Below are positions 682 through 30,779 of a stretch of 35,003 nt of DNA, piece after piece. The DNA comes from Candidatus Methylomirabilota bacterium. GTDB lineage: Bacteria > Methylomirabilota > Methylomirabilia > Rokubacteriales > CSP1-6. The notes beneath the pieces are model-generated. The model was not told the DNA's origin. It was given only the letters and a program-made list of their open reading frames with translations, and did not search any database. The position numbers were made by a program, and so were the translations under genes. Numbering within the stretch: the stretch's first letter is position 1; each line of letters begins with the position of its first letter. Location: positions 1 through 35,003 of the forward strand of contig DASYUQ010000051.1 of assembly GCA_036001065.1 (NCBI GenBank), given 5' to 3'.

Positions 682-714
682 AGCACTTCCCCGGTCACGT
701 GGTCGTTGGTTCCG

Positions 715-820
715 TCGGAGGGGGCGGACGTTACGGCCCCCTCCGAGATTCCTAGTCGGAGGGGAGCCTCACGGCCCCCTCCCAGCCACCCCAATGGTTG
801 CGCGGGCAGAGCCCGCGCTC
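715..820. repeat. composite palindromic repeat, copy A (hslV-hslU gap)
   Basis: Read on the gene strand, this holds a 19-base hairpin (800-818, arms GCGCGGGC/GCCCGCGC), an imperfect GGAGGGG/CCCCTCC-type hairpin (about 756-784), and a 32-base hairpin at 715-746 with TCGGAGGGGGC/GCCCCCTCCGA arms. The same building blocks recur at 8718-8811, 16195-16226 and 30698-30779. The 32-base unit is identical, in inverted orientation, to the one at 16195-16226. It resembles REP/BIME-type intergenic elements. Whether it acts in mRNA processing or is simply a mobile repeat cannot be told from the sequence. Confidence 0.85.
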
Positions 821-868
821 TAACGGAGGCGAGATCGCTCTGGCAGGCCGCGGCGGGCACCAACATCC

Positions 869-7604: not shown

Positions 7605-8714
7605 CTAATGGCTTGGATGCGGCAGGTTGAGGACCGGTCGGAAGCGGGCGAAGAACCAGCGCCGGCTCAGGACGAAGACCCCGAAAAAGCCGGCCGTGAT
7701 GAGGGCGTCGCGCCAGCCGAGCGCGAAGCCCGCCTCTGGGTTGACGGAGGGAAAGACGACGACGATCCGCTCGAGGAAGATGGCGACCAGCCCGAAGACG
7801 GCCACCACGACGAGGGGCGTGTGGCGCTCGGGCGGCCGGCCGGTGAGCCGCTTGAGCAGGTAGGCGAACGGGATGAGCCAGCCCACCACCAGCACCACCC
7901 AGGACACGGCTCCCCAGGGCTGCGTGAGGAAGCGGCGCACGACGAAGCGGGTTTCGACCGGCACGTTGCCGTACCAGATGACGAGGTACTGCGACCAGAA
8001 GAAATACATCCACATGATCGAGAGAGCGAACTGAAGCTTGGCGACATCCTGGACGGCGGCGGGCGGCACCGAGGCCAACCCCCGCGCGTTGGCGAGGACC
8101 GTCAGGATCGACAGCAGCGCGAAGCCCGTGTAGAGCGTGGAGACGACGAAGTAGCCGCCGAACAGGCCGCTGTACCACTGGGGGTCGAGCGACATGACGA
8201 GGTCGAACCCCCACAGCGACACCGTGACTACCCACAGCACGAGGAGGATCACCGCCAGGCGGTTGCGCCGGCTCCGCTCCCGCTCGTCGTCGGGCTGGAT
8301 CGGGTCGCCCAGCAGGGCGCGCACGAAGACGAAGGCCACGCCGAACAGGGCGGCCGCGCACCCCAGCGTCCGGAGCCAGAAGAACGGGGTGTTCAGCCAC
8401 GCCGCCTTCACCGGGATCGGATGCGTGACCCATGGATAGAGCACGACGCGACCGGTGAAGAGGATGAGCAGCAGGACGAATGCCGCCGGGAGGAAGCCGG
8501 CCGTCGTCAGCGCGATGCGCCGCACGCTCGGCGACCAGCGCGCCTCGGTGAGCTGCATCATCCCCGCGATCGCCGGGCCGGTGACGGCCAGCCCCGACCA
8601 GAAGACGAGGTTCACGAGGTAGATCGACCACACGCGCGCGGCCTCCGCCGAGTTGACGCCCAGGACGAAGGCCAGCGCCCCCAGCGCCGCCAGCAGCCCC
8701 CAGATCACGCTCAT
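7605..8714 (-). CDS. actF: alternative complex III membrane subunit ActF
   Basis: This is an integral membrane subunit of quinol:cytochrome c/HiPIP oxidoreductase (alternative complex III). It has 369 residues and about ten hydrophobic helices, beginning VIWGLLAALGALAFVLGV. Typical ActF segments include SLWGFDLVMSLDPQWYSGLFG, FALSIMWMYFFWSQYLVIWYG and NVPVETRF. ActF is a shortened relative of the NrfD-like subunit ActC. The ATG at 8714 lies just inside the edge of a palindromic repeat that separates it from actE. It closes the set actABCDE-F in canonical order, so the assignment rests on both sequence and context. Confidence 0.92.
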   Translation of the reverse strand: MSVIWGLLAALGALAFVLGVNSAEAARVWSIYLVNLVFWSGLAVTGPAIAGMMQLTEARWSPSVRRIALTTAGFLPAAFVLLLILFTGRVVLYPWVTHPIPVKAAWLNTPFFWLRTLGCAAALFGVAFVFVRALLGDPIQPDDERERSRRNRLAVILLVLWVVTVSLWGFDLVMSLDPQWYSGLFGGYFVVSTLYTGFALLSILTVLANARGLASVPPAAVQDVAKLQFALSIMWMYFFWSQYLVIWYGNVPVETRFVVRRFLTQPWGAVSWVVLVVGWLIPFAYLLKRLTGRPPERHTPLVVVAVFGLVAIFLERIVVVFPSVNPEAGFALGWRDALITAGFFGVFVLSRRWFFARFRPVLNLPHPSH

Positions 8715-8717
8715 ACG

Positions 8718-8811
8718 TCGGAGGGGGCGACGTCACAGGCGCGCCCCCTGGGCGCGACGGCCCCCTCCGAGGCCTCCCCCAGCACAGGTTGCGCCGGCGA
8801 AGCCGGCGCTC
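8718..8811. repeat. composite palindromic repeat, copy B (actE-actF gap)
   Basis: On the gene strand there is first a 19-base hairpin (8791-8809, arms GCGCCGGC/GCCGGCGC), then a long hairpin with TCGGAGGGGGC/GCCCCCTCCGA outer arms (8718-8770). The long hairpin's loop itself folds as GCGCCC/GGGCGC. Its order and spacing match the copy at 30698-30779. It ends three bases before the actF start codon, so the hairpin would sit over the actF ribosome site in a polycistronic mRNA and could lower actF translation. Confidence 0.85.
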
Positions 8812-8850
8812 GAGTCGGCGTGCCCGACTCTCGGGTTGACACAGGATGTC

Positions 8851-9357
8851 TCATTTCGCGGCCAGCGTGCGGAGGAAGTTGACGATGTGCCACGCCTCCT
8901 GGGACGAGAGCGCCTCGACGTAGGACGGCATGACGGCCCCGCCGGCCATGATGTAGCTGTGCCAGTAGCCGTCCGTGCGCTGCTTCTGCAGCTCGGCGTT
9001 GGTCAGGTCGGGCGCGGGGATGAACTTGGTCGCCACCGGGCCGGTGACCCCGCCCTTGCCCTCGGGGCCGTGGCAGGGCGCGCAGAAGGTGGCGAAGTGC
9101 TGGCGGCCTACCGCCACCGACTCCGCCCCCGGCTTGATCGGGTTCGGCTGCTTGGCGGCGACGTCCCGCTGCTCCCGCGGCGGGATCAGCGCGCCCCCGC
9201 GGGGGATGACGCCCGCCGGCATTCGGAACACGCGCTCACCGGGGACGACCTTGGCCGTCTGGGTCATGTTGTCGACGAAGCGCACGACGATCACCATCCC
9301 CATGAGCCCGCCCGAGGCCACCACCAGCAGCAGGACGAGGATGAAGACGTACTTCAT
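8851..9357 (-). CDS. actE: alternative complex III monoheme cytochrome c subunit ActE
   Basis: This membrane-anchored cytochrome c subunit passes electrons out of alternative complex III. From the ATG at 9357, which overlaps the actD stop by four bases (ATGA), it has 168 residues. One N-terminal helix (about residues 3-27) serves as uncleaved anchor or signal. The heme c site CAPCH is at 92-96, with KGGVTGPVA after it. The probable axial Met143 lies in GGAVMPSYVEALS, a class I cytochrome c pattern. It ends at 8851, 136 bases before actF; that gap is mostly repeat. The longer open frame upstream overlaps actD and is not used. Confidence 0.93.
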   Translation of the reverse strand: MKYVFILVLLLVVASGGLMGMVIVVRFVDNMTQTAKVVPGERVFRMPAGVIPRGGALIPPREQRDVAAKQPNPIKPGAESVAVGRQHFATFCAPCHGPEGKGGVTGPVATKFIPAPDLTNAELQKQRTDGYWHSYIMAGGAVMPSYVEALSSQEAWHIVNFLRTLAAK

Positions 9358-9866: not shown

Positions 9867-11202
9867 GGGCGCCGTCCTTCAGCGGCTGGGGGAGCGTTTC
9901 CTTGACCTCCACGATGGACAGCGACGGCATCACCCGGATGAAGCCGAGGAACAGCAGGAAGAACCAGGCGAAGCTGCCGATGACGATCATGGTGTCGGTC
10001 GGGGTCGGCACGTAGATCCCCCACGTGTAGGGATAGAAGTCGTGGGCGAGCGACGGCACGATGATGTTGAAGCGCTCGAACCACATCCCGATCAGCACCA
10101 GGATGGATACGATGTAGAGCACCACCGGGCTCGTGCGCGCGCGCCTCCAGAAGAGGATCAGCGGCGAGATGCAGTTGCAGAAGTACATGAGCCAGAGTGC
10201 CCAGGCGTACGACTTGGTCACCTTCCAGAAGAGCGACGCCCGTTCGAAGTGGTCGCCGCTGTACCAGGACGTGAAGAGCTCGCAGACGTAGAAGTAGGTC
10301 AGCACCAGGCCGGTTGTCAGAATGAGCTTGCCCATGGCGTCCAGGTGCTTTTCCTGGATGTAGGCGTGGAGGTTGAAGAAGTGGCGCATGGGCAGGACCA
10401 GCACCAGCACCATCGCGAAGCCGGAGAAGATCGCGCCATCGACGAAGAAGGGCGCGAAGAGCGTGGAGTGCCAGCCGGGGACCAGGGCCACCGCGAAGTC
10501 CCACGACACCACGCTGTGGACCGACAGGACCAACGGCGTGGCCAGGGCGGCGAACAGGCCGTAGGCCCGCCGGTAGTGGCGCCACTGGCGGTCGCTCCCC
10601 TCCCAGCCGAGGGCCAGCATGGCATAGATGCGCTGGCGCCAGCCGGTGGTGGCGTCGCGCAGGGCCGCCACGTCGGGGATCAGGCCCACGATGAAGAAGA
10701 CGGTGCTGATGGAGAGATAGGTCGAGATGGCGAAGACGTCCCACACGAGCGGCGAGCGGAAGTTCGGCCACAGATCGCGCTGGTTCCAGTAGGGCAGCAG
10801 GAAGTAGGCGAACCACATGCGCCCGGCGTGGATCAGCGGGAACAGCCCGGCCGTCATGACGGCGAAGATCGTCATGGCCTCCGCGGCCCGAAAGATCGAC
10901 GTGCGCCAGCGGGCCCGGAAGAGGTAGAGGATCGCCGAGATGAGCGTGCCGGCGTGGCCGATACCGATCCAGAACACGAAGGAGGTGATGTACATCGCCC
11001 ACATCTGGGGCGTGCGCTTTCCCGCCGCGCCCATGCCGATGTAGATCTGCCAGGTCCAGGCCAGGATGCCCGCCGCCAGGATCAGCCCCACCACGCACAT
11101 CCAGCCGAAATAGAGGTTGCCCGGCGTCGCCAGCGTGCGCAGGACGTCGCGGTTGACGTCGGCGAACGTCGGCGGGCGGTGGCGCTCGGTGGCCACGCTC
11201 AT
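9853..11202 (-). CDS. actC: alternative complex III NrfD-like quinol-site subunit ActC
   Basis: This polytopic NrfD/PsrC-family protein of 449 residues contains the quinol-oxidising site of alternative complex III. About ten membrane helices can be traced, from NLYFGWMCVVGLILAAGILA near residue 30 to the last near residue 425. ActC-like phrases are YIGMGAAGKRTPQMWAMYI, WIGIGHAGTLISAILYL, HSVVSWDFA and MWFERFNIIVPSLAHDFYP. It lies 40 bases after actB and overlaps actD. Family membership is clear. The separate formate dehydrogenase NrfD-like subunit at 24281-25222 is a much shorter, distinct paralogue. Confidence 0.95.
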   Translation of the reverse strand: MSVATERHRPPTFADVNRDVLRTLATPGNLYFGWMCVVGLILAAGILAWTWQIYIGMGAAGKRTPQMWAMYITSFVFWIGIGHAGTLISAILYLFRARWRTSIFRAAEAMTIFAVMTAGLFPLIHAGRMWFAYFLLPYWNQRDLWPNFRSPLVWDVFAISTYLSISTVFFIVGLIPDVAALRDATTGWRQRIYAMLALGWEGSDRQWRHYRRAYGLFAALATPLVLSVHSVVSWDFAVALVPGWHSTLFAPFFVDGAIFSGFAMVLVLVLPMRHFFNLHAYIQEKHLDAMGKLILTTGLVLTYFYVCELFTSWYSGDHFERASLFWKVTKSYAWALWLMYFCNCISPLILFWRRARTSPVVLYIVSILVLIGMWFERFNIIVPSLAHDFYPYTWGIYVPTPTDTMIVIGSFAWFFLLFLGFIRVMPSLSIVEVKETLPQPLKDGARGRH

Positions 11203-11242
11203 AGGCTCGCCTCGCCGGCGGCTGCGGCTCGCAGGGCCACGT

Positions 11243-14841: not shown

Positions 14842-14913
14842 CTAGTGCCGTTCCAACTTGTTGATACACGTACACGGTGCCTTCCTAGGCGCGAATAGTT
14901 GGAACGGCACTAG
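14842..14913. mobile_element. small TA-flanked inverted-repeat element (MITE-like) at the end of hemL
   Basis: Two perfect 17-base arms, CTAGTGCCGTTCCAACT and its complement, occupy 14842-14858 and 14897-14913 around 38 bases of unrelated sequence. The ends read TA-GTGCC...GGCAC-TA, the pattern expected if a TA target was duplicated, as with Tc1/mariner/IS630-type elements. No reading frame is inside. The hemL stop codon (TAG, 14910-14912) lies within the right arm, so the element may have replaced the original 3' end of hemL. In RNA the arms would form a strong stem without a U-run, so some terminator activity is also possible. Confidence 0.6.
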
Positions 14914-16670
14914 GCGAGGGCGCCCAGCGCCTCGGCGGCGGCGCGCGCCGCGCGTTCGAGGTCGGCCTCCGAGTGGGCCAGGGACACGAACGCCGCCTCG
15001 AACTGCGACGGCGCCAGGAACACGCCGCGCTCGAGCATCGCGTGGAAGTAGCGCGCGTAGCGGGCCGTGTCGGACCGCTTGGCGGTCGCGTAGTCCGTCA
15101 CCGGACCGGTCGTGAAGAACGCCGTCAGCATCGAACCTACGCGGTTCACGATGAGGGGGACGCCGGACTTTTCCGCCGCCGTGCGCAGCCCGCGTTCCAG
15201 CCGCGTCCCCAGGACGTCCAGGCGGGCGTAGGGGTCGCCCTCGCGGAGCGCCCGGATCGTGGCCAGGCCGGCCGCCACCGCCAGCGGATTGCCCGACAGC
15301 GTGCCGGCCTGATAGACGCCGCCGAGCGGCGCGACGTGCGCCATCAGGTCGCGGCGGCCGCCGTAGGCCCCGACCGGCAAACCGCCTCCGATGATCTTGC
15401 CCAGGCACGTGAGATCGGGACGGACGTCGTAGAGGGCCTGGGCGCCGCCGTAGGCCACCCGGAACCCCGTGATCACCTCGTCGAAGATCAACGCCGCGCC
15501 GTGCCGCGTGCAGAGCTCCCGCAGCCCCCCCAGGAAGCCCGGCGCCGGAGGCACGACGCCCATGTTTCCCGCAACGGGCTCGACGATCACGGCGGCGATC
15601 TGGGCGCCGCGGGCGCCGAAGATCGCGCGCACGGCCTCGAGGTCGTTGAACGGCGCCGTCACCGTCAGCCGGGCCAGGCTCTCGGGCACGCCCCGGCTGT
15701 CGGGGATCGAAAACGTCGCGCCGCCGGAGCCGGCCTTGACCAGAAGACTGTCGGCGTGGCCGTGGTAGCAGCCGTCGAACTTCACGACGAGATCACGGCC
15801 GGTGGCGCCGCGGGCCACGCGGATGGCGCTCATGGCCGCCTCGGTCCCCGAGCTGACCAGCCGGACCAGCTCCATCGACGGATAGGCGGCCGTGATCGCC
15901 TCCGCCATCTCCACTTCCGCGGCCGTGGGGGTGCCGTAGCTGGTGCCGCGCGCGGCCGCATCGACCACGGCCGCCACGACAGCCGGCGCCGCATGACCGA
16001 GAACGAGCGGTCCCCACGACCCGACGAAGTCGATGTAGGAGCGCCCGTCCACGTCCCACAGGCGGGCCCCCTCGGCCCGGGCCACGAAGAACGGCTGCCC
16101 CCCCACCCCGCGGAACGCGCGCACCGGGCTATTCACGCCGCCCGGGATCACCCGCTCGGCCGCCGCGAACAACTCCCGCGAGCTCTTCACGGCTTCGGAG
16201 GGGGCCGTAACGTCCGCCCCCTCCGAGGTTACTTCGACGGGCCGGAAGTCCTGCGCGCCCAGGTCCCAGCGAAAGCCATTCATGGCTTCCACCCGGCCGC
16301 TCACGACGGAGACGACGACATACGTCGCCTCCGGATAGATGGGCTCCCCGTTCATCAGCGCCTGACGCTTGTCCGTCTCCGAGAAGTAGGCGCCCGCCTC
16401 CACGTGCGAATGATAGATGACGACCGGCGCGAAGCCGTCCTGCTCCAGGCGGACCATTGCGAGCCGATCGGCGTCGGCGATGTGATAGGCCGTGCGGGCG
16501 TCGCGGGGATAGCGGCGCGGATCGCGGGCGTGCAGGGCATCCTGATCGTTCCGGCAGCGCAGCAGCCGGCGCTCGGCCCCCCGCACCAGCACGACGCCGC
16601 AGGCCTCGCGGGGATACTCCTCCGCCGCCTGCTGCTTGATGGCTTCGACCTCGTCGGCGGCGAGGATCAC
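14910..16670 (-). CDS. hemL: JAMM/Mec-type protease fused in frame to glutamate-1-semialdehyde 2,1-aminomutase (HemL)
   Basis: One open frame of 586 codons holds two proteins. Residues 1-148 are an M67 JAMM metallopeptidase like mycobacterial Mec, which frees cysteine from CysO. Its zinc site is Glu22, His87-Ser-His89, Ser97 and Asp100 (HxHx7Sx2D). Residues 161-586 are a full-length HemL, the PLP enzyme that makes 5-aminolevulinate, with [35 protein letters not shown] and the lysine motif [17 protein letters not shown] near 425. Residues 149-159 are encoded by a palindromic repeat (16195-16226) that is open in this frame. GTG at 16190 (residue 161) gives a HemL of normal 426 residues and may be used separately. 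The GTG start of mec overlaps the cysO stop by four bases. Confidence 0.9.
16195..16226. repeat. palindromic repeat, copy C (inside the mec-hemL frame)
   Basis: This single 32-base unit, with TCGGAGGGGGC/GCCCCCTCCGA arms, is identical base for base to 715-746 but in the opposite orientation. The companion GCGCCGGC hairpin of the other copies is missing. In the reading frame used it encodes part of the linker [13 protein letters not shown] between the JAMM and HemL domains and contains no stop codon. Confidence 0.9.
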
Positions 16671-30697: not shown

Positions 30698-30779
30698 TCG
30701 GAGGGGGCCTCGACGGCCCCCTCCGACACCTCCTCCAGGAAGGGGAAAACGTTGCGCCGGCAAAGCCGGCGCTCGAACC
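30698..30779. repeat. composite palindromic repeat, copy D (truA-fdhD gap)
   Basis: On the gene strand the order is a 19-base hairpin (30754-30772, arms GCGCCGGC/GCCGGCGC), a spacer containing CTGGAGGAGG, and a 29-base hairpin (30698-30726) with TCGGAGGGGGC/GCCCCCTCCGA arms. This is the same layout as the copy at 8718-8811. The element fills almost the whole gap from the truA stop to the fdhD ribosome site. Confidence 0.88.

Follow-up and report, generated by a model that had tools for sequence, protein, structure and literature searches.

The window analyzed here, a stretch of 35,003 nucleotides from contig C51 of a Candidatus Methylomirabilota bacterium belonging to the Rokubacteriales, contains four copies of a repeat that is built around two different GC-rich hairpins. 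The two-hairpin elements are mobile, and recently so, and at their insertions the target is directly duplicated over a variable length of about 5-44 bp. They probably represent non-autonomous miniature insertion elements specific for the Rokubacteriales, for which insertion would depend on the hairpins and produce duplications of variable length, selection at gene edges would decide which copies are kept, and RAYT transposases would play no part. The genome from which the window was taken (G000) is available as a 4.46-Mb assembly of 239 contigs and is about 93% identical to its sister and nearest relative, G052; all genomes compared are metagenome assemblies (MAGs), from which long multi-copy elements may be missing.

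Architecture of the Two-Hairpin Element

All four copies were found where the original prediction had placed them, dispersed over the 35 kb, and they fold much more stably than shuffled sequences, with z values of -5.9, -4.2, and -5.9 for the three two-hairpin copies and of -3.0 for a lone hairpin A. The two-hairpin layout proposed at that time is real, although the element is longer than had been assumed, as it includes a tail past the second hairpin and is accompanied by flanking duplications. The core has a constant order consisting of hairpin A (TCGGAGGGGGCC-TCGAC-GGCCCCCTCCGA), a CCTCCCCCAGG spacer, and hairpin B (GCGCSGGC-RAA-GCCSGCGC). In the orientation of the window, a gene edge is followed by 3-4 variable nucleotides, TCGGAGGGGGCC-loop-GGCCCCCTCCGA (hairpin A), NNCCTCCCCCAGG, a few nucleotides, GRTT, hairpin B, TCGAA, and the tail. 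B is always situated downstream of A in one orientation, the gap between them mostly comprising 19-22 nt, and the variable tail 3' of B extends for about 13-60 nt; the elements measure about 115-160 bp.

A and B are unlike hairpins and do not form an inverted pair. Loops of hairpin A are of two main types, CTCGACG and GGACGTTACG, which are swapped between orthologous copies. Pairing in hairpin B is preserved by C-G, G-C, A-U, and U-A exchanges, with compensatory pairs in 15 of 66 sequences at one pair and in 3 of 66 at another. Among the tails, type a (TTACTCCGACRCGCTC), type b (CAGTGAGCTCGCGCCATTC), and types c/d (GGTTGACACAGGATGT or CGATACC) are recurrent. Neither a GTAG nor a CGTC tag is present in the alignment consensus of 66 copies, the bases 5' of hairpin A are unconserved, and no T-run occurs 3' of either hairpin, the consensus being GNCCTCCCCC after A and TCGAA after B. 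The end of tail a partly matches, in reverse complement, the TCGGAG of the A end (TCGGAG/CTCCGA), and no conserved inverted ends are seen when all tail types are compared. An Rfam search with the repeat gave no match, and in the literature searched no repeat of this kind is described for the soil-dwelling Rokubacteria.

Within the window, element 1 (711-867, plus strand) resides between hslV and hslU and is bounded by a 34-bp direct duplication, the left copy of which (677-710) is on the hslU side and holds the GTGA start/stop overlap; the right copy (868-901) comprises C-terminal codons and the stop of hslV. The hairpins A and B predicted for this copy are both present on the plus strand, A with a GGACGTTACG loop and a perfect 11-bp stem in the DNA fold (715-746), and B as a GCGCGGGC stem variant recognized by sequence and fold (800-818). 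In addition, the fold reveals an extra A-like hairpin (756-785, plus strand) that had not been foreseen and that is, according to the alignment, missing from the G052 copy. Element 2 (8715-8849, plus strand) belongs to a long-loop subfamily with a GGGTTGACACAGGATGT tail; its hairpins A (8718-8770, long loop) and B (8791-8809) were both identified by folding, and the stretch 8708-8854 is repeated at several other places of the genome with about 90-93% identity. Element 4, with hairpins A (30698-30726, by folding) and B (30754-30772) on the plus strand, is located at a junction of fdhD with a truA-like gene.

The remaining copy is a solitary hairpin A (16195-16226) that lies inside a reading frame, between JAB and HemL-type aminotransferase domains, at what was formerly a junction of two genes. 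At 14910-16670, the JAB-domain protein and the HemL-type aminotransferase are encoded by one ORF of 586 aa, as they are in G052, with the lone hairpin A linking them in frame; G051 has separate genes for them, the stop of one overlapping the start of the other.

The window also contains an unrelated second MITE, CTAG-TGCCGTTCCAACTTGTTG...AGTTGGAACGGCA-CTAG (14842-14909), for which G052 shows a clean empty site (GCCGCTAGGCG). Full copies of this CTAG MITE are present in many fetched stretches of its own genome, whereas about 1.3 Mb of G052 contains none, which suggests that it invaded recently.

Abundance and Distribution

A genome-wide scan confirms copies beyond chance, with 100 exact copies of hairpin A in the own genome and none of the reversed control pattern. 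High copy number had been predicted correctly, but it amounts to about 100-170 and not to the hundreds of copies per genome that had been proposed. G052 sequence totaling 1.02 Mb, picked without regard to the repeat, contains 35 composites, 47 A hairpins, and 76 B hairpins (shuffled sequence: 1 A and 9 B), which extrapolates to about 34 composites per Mb and to about 130 composites and 170 A hairpins per genome. Only 4 of these 35 composites are situated within a predicted gene, compared with 31 expected from the coding density.

Exact hairpin A is present in 49 and exact hairpin B in 53 of 60 Rokubacteriales genomes, the copies of exact A ranging from 0 to 106 per genome. A covariance model of the kind suggested by the original prediction, with at most 50 candidates scored per genome, matches the composite in 59 of these 60 genomes, and it gives single matches in 2 of 35 other Methylomirabilota genomes; the family is therefore old and confined to the Rokubacteriales, and its copy number differs strongly between genera. 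When 84,980 species genomes were scanned for exact A, at least 80 contigs matched, and among the matches listed all but three are titled Rokubacteria. These three are from Roseicella, from bacterium HR12, and from one MAG labeled Acidobacteria, in which the copy has the normal Rokubacteria structure. In the alphaproteobacterium Roseicella aerolata (L023, 269-293), a TCGGAGGGGGC-hairpin followed by GCCTCCCCC is located directly 3' of a possible TGA stop, which may reflect convergence or relationship.

Filled and Empty Sites

One close pair of genomes, G000 and G052, was available for a comparison of filled and empty sites. For 25 elements, drawn from the G000 copies, the orthologous place in G052 is readable, and the element is missing there in 13 cases, some of which are diverged or partly remodeled rather than clean. 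At one clean site (L274), the empty form reads GCGCTCATG-CTC and the filled form has CTCATG on both sides of the element (6 bp); at another (L158), the empty form is ACGCTAGCGG and GCTAGC is found on both sides (6 bp); at a third (L187), ATGAGCC (7 bp) flanks the element on both sides. Elements of the window behave in the same manner. Element 1 is shared with G052 and absent from G004 and G021, representing other genera, where 677-710 and 868-901 align to the same single stretch of 33-34 bp; this stretch is also single in a paralog, the second hslVU locus of the own genome. Element 2 is flanked by CTCAT on each side, the left one (8710-8714) containing, on the minus strand, the ATG start of the downstream gene and the right one (8850-8854) the stop codon TGA of the upstream gene; its site is empty in G056, G021, G004, and G006, and relatives possess a single ATGA overlap. 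The junction of element 4 is free of the element in G021, G011, and G006, and in the G052 ortholog (L223, around 11163-11237) the same junction carries an element in the opposite orientation.

Target Duplications and Gene Edges

Clean duplications have lengths of 5, 6, 7, 8, 10, 12, 34, 41, 43, and 44 bp. Direct repeats were examined at 207 elements, for left copies ending 3-5 nt from hairpin A and with shuffled pairings as control, and clear repeats of 7, 8, 10, 12, 29, 34, 41, 43, and 44 bp were obtained. Above a score of 7 they are well in excess of the shuffled pairings; about 17 reach scores of at least 10, compared with about 1 expected, and exact-match duplications of at least 9 bp number 17, compared with about 1.5 in shuffled pairs. 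Most copies are without a clear duplication, perhaps owing to decay or to a different mode. Head-to-tail arrays of element plus flank, with three units of about 146-171 bp, occur at L313 (5413-5780) and L178 (2496-2911); they were left out as separate insertions, and some long duplications may have arisen secondarily in tandem in this way. Many short duplications are centered on CTAG; the idea of a fixed duplication of only TA or CTAG was dropped in view of the cases of 34-44 bp.

The predicted start or stop codon of an ORF, with start positions being approximate as genes were called by a simple script, is contained in 28 of 36 candidate duplications, some of the shortest of which are due to chance, compared with 4% of random windows. 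The location at gene edges would be explained by the duplication, which reconstitutes both genes. At L174 and L056 the element lies within a gene, 10-15 codons past the start, and an entire start is regained through the duplication. When the A side is directed towards a 3' end, hairpin A starts 0-8 nt past the stop codon in 56 of 75 cases (14 of 20 in the own genome and 42 of 55 in relatives), and where it does not, A is often 3-9 nt from a start codon. This closeness of A to stop and start codons would be explained if only insertions that rebuild the edge had been kept. On the B side, the intervening tail increases the distance to a gene edge to about 50-80 nt. Elements avoid divergent junctions (3 of 122) and are enriched at convergent ones, and tandem junctions show no strand preference (41:44). 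An idea that was set aside considered the reverse complement of the spacer (CCTGGGGGAGG) as a ribosome-binding site bridged by hairpin A, since the duplication already accounts for the position of the start codon.

Tail types and targets are associated, tails a/b having 26 CTAR and no CTCAT and tails c/d having 1 CTAR and 11 CTCAT (Fisher p about 1e-8). This association may partly reflect shared ancestry, and it argues for target recognition over random breaks alone.

Candidate Mobilizers and Alternative Explanations

No known transposase accounts for the movement of the two-hairpin elements. The original prediction compared them with REP/BIME elements mobilized by RAYTs, and the layout is indeed REP-like in being dispersed, high-copy, palindromic, and located at gene junctions; the likeness ends with the missing GTAG/CGTC tag, the unlike hairpins A and B, and the target duplications. 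High-copy extragenic palindromes close to 3' ends are typical of REPs (PMC3733652), and true RAYTs (NF047646, about 290-310 aa) are encoded in a few genomes of the order, for example at L142 and L145 in G035 and G024. Nevertheless, spread by a RAYT (TnpA-REP, a Y1 HUH transposase) that has since been lost from most genomes appears quite improbable. Any Y1 transposase is limited to 11 of the 60 Rokubacteriales genomes, and the 49 genomes lacking one include almost all with high copy numbers, among them G052 and G048, which have the most copies; across the 60 genomes, Y1 presence and copy number show no relation. The sole Y1 transposase of the own genome is an IS200/IS605 TnpA (L016, 1321-1686) without the profile region that holds the catalytic HUH motif, adjoined downstream by an intact-looking tnpB, and enzymes of the IS200/IS605 type are said to make no target duplications (PMC2817692). 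The RAYT gene flanked by the same hairpins that had been anticipated was encountered neither in the own genome nor at the fetched Y1 loci of the order, which contain no A hairpin. The RAYT-family genes of G035 and G024 have no REP-like hairpins nearby and are possibly domesticated. Unlikely as well, if less so, is an origin as MITEs of a conventional DDE transposon that bears terminal inverted repeats and always duplicates the same few base pairs, for example CTAG or TA; longer duplications would then have arisen secondarily. The partial complementarity between the ends of tail a elements, the many short duplications centered on CTAG, and the true CTAG MITE in the same genome would fit this reading, whereas the lack of a fixed length among clean duplications and of inverted ends conserved across tail types speaks against it. 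Moreover, self-BLAST of sampled sequence (1.3 Mb of G052 and 0.64 Mb of G000) detected no autonomous multi-copy IS, and no autonomous partner or parent element sharing ends was seen there, although MAGs may lack such elements.

A precise and a variable end, duplications of variable length, and a strong hairpin at the precise end are what one might expect from SINE-like retroposition, in which a specific nick would be the place where a reverse transcriptase copies an RNA ending in hairpin A. We give this little credence, as reverse transcriptase (RVT_1) is present in 20 and absent in 39 of 59 genomes, the latter including G048 with its 106 exact A copies, RVT_1 does not correlate with copy number, and RT loci are not associated with the hairpins. 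Equally hard to sustain are immobile, conserved RNA hairpins retained as terminators or mRNA stabilizers at gene ends. Their position just 3' of stop codons, and the reported ability of REPs to stall ribosomes when located within 15 nt of stop codons (PMC12306157), would agree with such a role, but empty sites with target duplications, the absence of a T-run, tandem junctions without orientation preference, and opposite orientations at one orthologous junction do not. The gene-edge pattern is better matched by insertion followed by selection for rebuilt genes than by an RNA function tied to one strand. That the copies originated as terminators is refuted by the empty sites and by the absent T-run and orientation bias; individual copies may have gained roles as terminators or stabilizers.

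Proposed Mode of Insertion

We therefore return to the interpretation as miniature insertion elements, in which the mobile unit would consist of hairpin A, the spacer, hairpin B, and the variable tail. The A side is joined precisely, at a distance of 3-4 nt from hairpin A. A machinery recognizing the folded hairpins might cut or join at a fixed distance from A, and the second cut of the target would occur at a variable distance; duplications would vary because this distance varies and the gap is filled in. Subfamilies seem to favor different targets, CTAR in the case of tails a/b and CTCAT in the case of tails c/d. In this gene-dense genome, a new copy would be kept when the duplication holds a gene edge, i.e., an ATGA or GTGA overlap or the convergent stops of CTAG, and long duplications would probably rebuild the downstream ribosome-binding site besides both reading frames. 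A host function is unnecessary to explain the pattern.

Whether the mechanism is an undescribed one, with a factor recognizing the hairpin pair, a precise A-side join at a target that depends on the subfamily, and another cut at a variable distance of 5-44 bp, achieved without Y1, reverse transcriptase, or a DDE transposase of fixed stagger, can be proposed only tentatively, and we would lean against it. A contribution of end-joining to movement is possible in view of the distribution of Ku, which is encoded in 48 of 59 genomes; the median number of copies is 5 without and 21 with Ku, a weak difference (p about 0.05) in a test that ignores phylogeny. The elements illustrate how an insertion between overlapping genes is tolerated, as the stop and start codons, and in some cases probably also the ribosome-binding site, are regenerated.

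Comparison With Known Systems

By behavior, the closest system is YPAL/RU-2, as judged from its published description. YPAL of Yersinia possesses internal inverted repeats, lacks TA ends, and shows empty sites and duplications of 3-26 bp (PMC2229807). Both families are small, non-autonomous, intergenic, and not A+T-rich, have internal hairpins and no TA ends (PMC2229807), and are known from filled and empty sites at which the target duplications vary in length. They differ in that the elements described here occur in another host phylum, are spread over a whole bacterial order, have two different GC-rich hairpins in a unit of about 115-160 bp, and create duplications of up to 44 bp.

REP, BIME, and REPIN elements are similar in their high copy number, their palindromic nature, their extragenic location near 3' ends, and their occurrence at tandem and convergent junctions. 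In contrast, the present elements have no GTAG/CGTC tag and no associated RAYT, combine two unlike hairpins in constant order, and make target duplications, a caution against regarding all high-copy palindromes at gene ends as REPs driven by RAYTs. CGTC-tagged REPs are likewise abundant hairpins for which no dedicated transposase is known (PMC3733652), but the present family lacks the CGTC tag, has a larger two-hairpin unit, and lives in different hosts. ERIC, Correia/NEMIS, and RUP resemble it as mobile intergenic units of 100-160 bp; they have terminal inverted repeats, target duplications with TA termini, and TA ends (PMC2229807), the last of which are not seen here.

After YPAL, the family thus provides a second case of a hairpin element whose target duplications vary in length, this time from an unrelated host. 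With about 100 copies per genome in the group, it becomes possible to test which machinery produces these duplications. Membership in YPAL is not claimed; the two-hairpin family is a miniature hairpin insertion element that works like YPAL.
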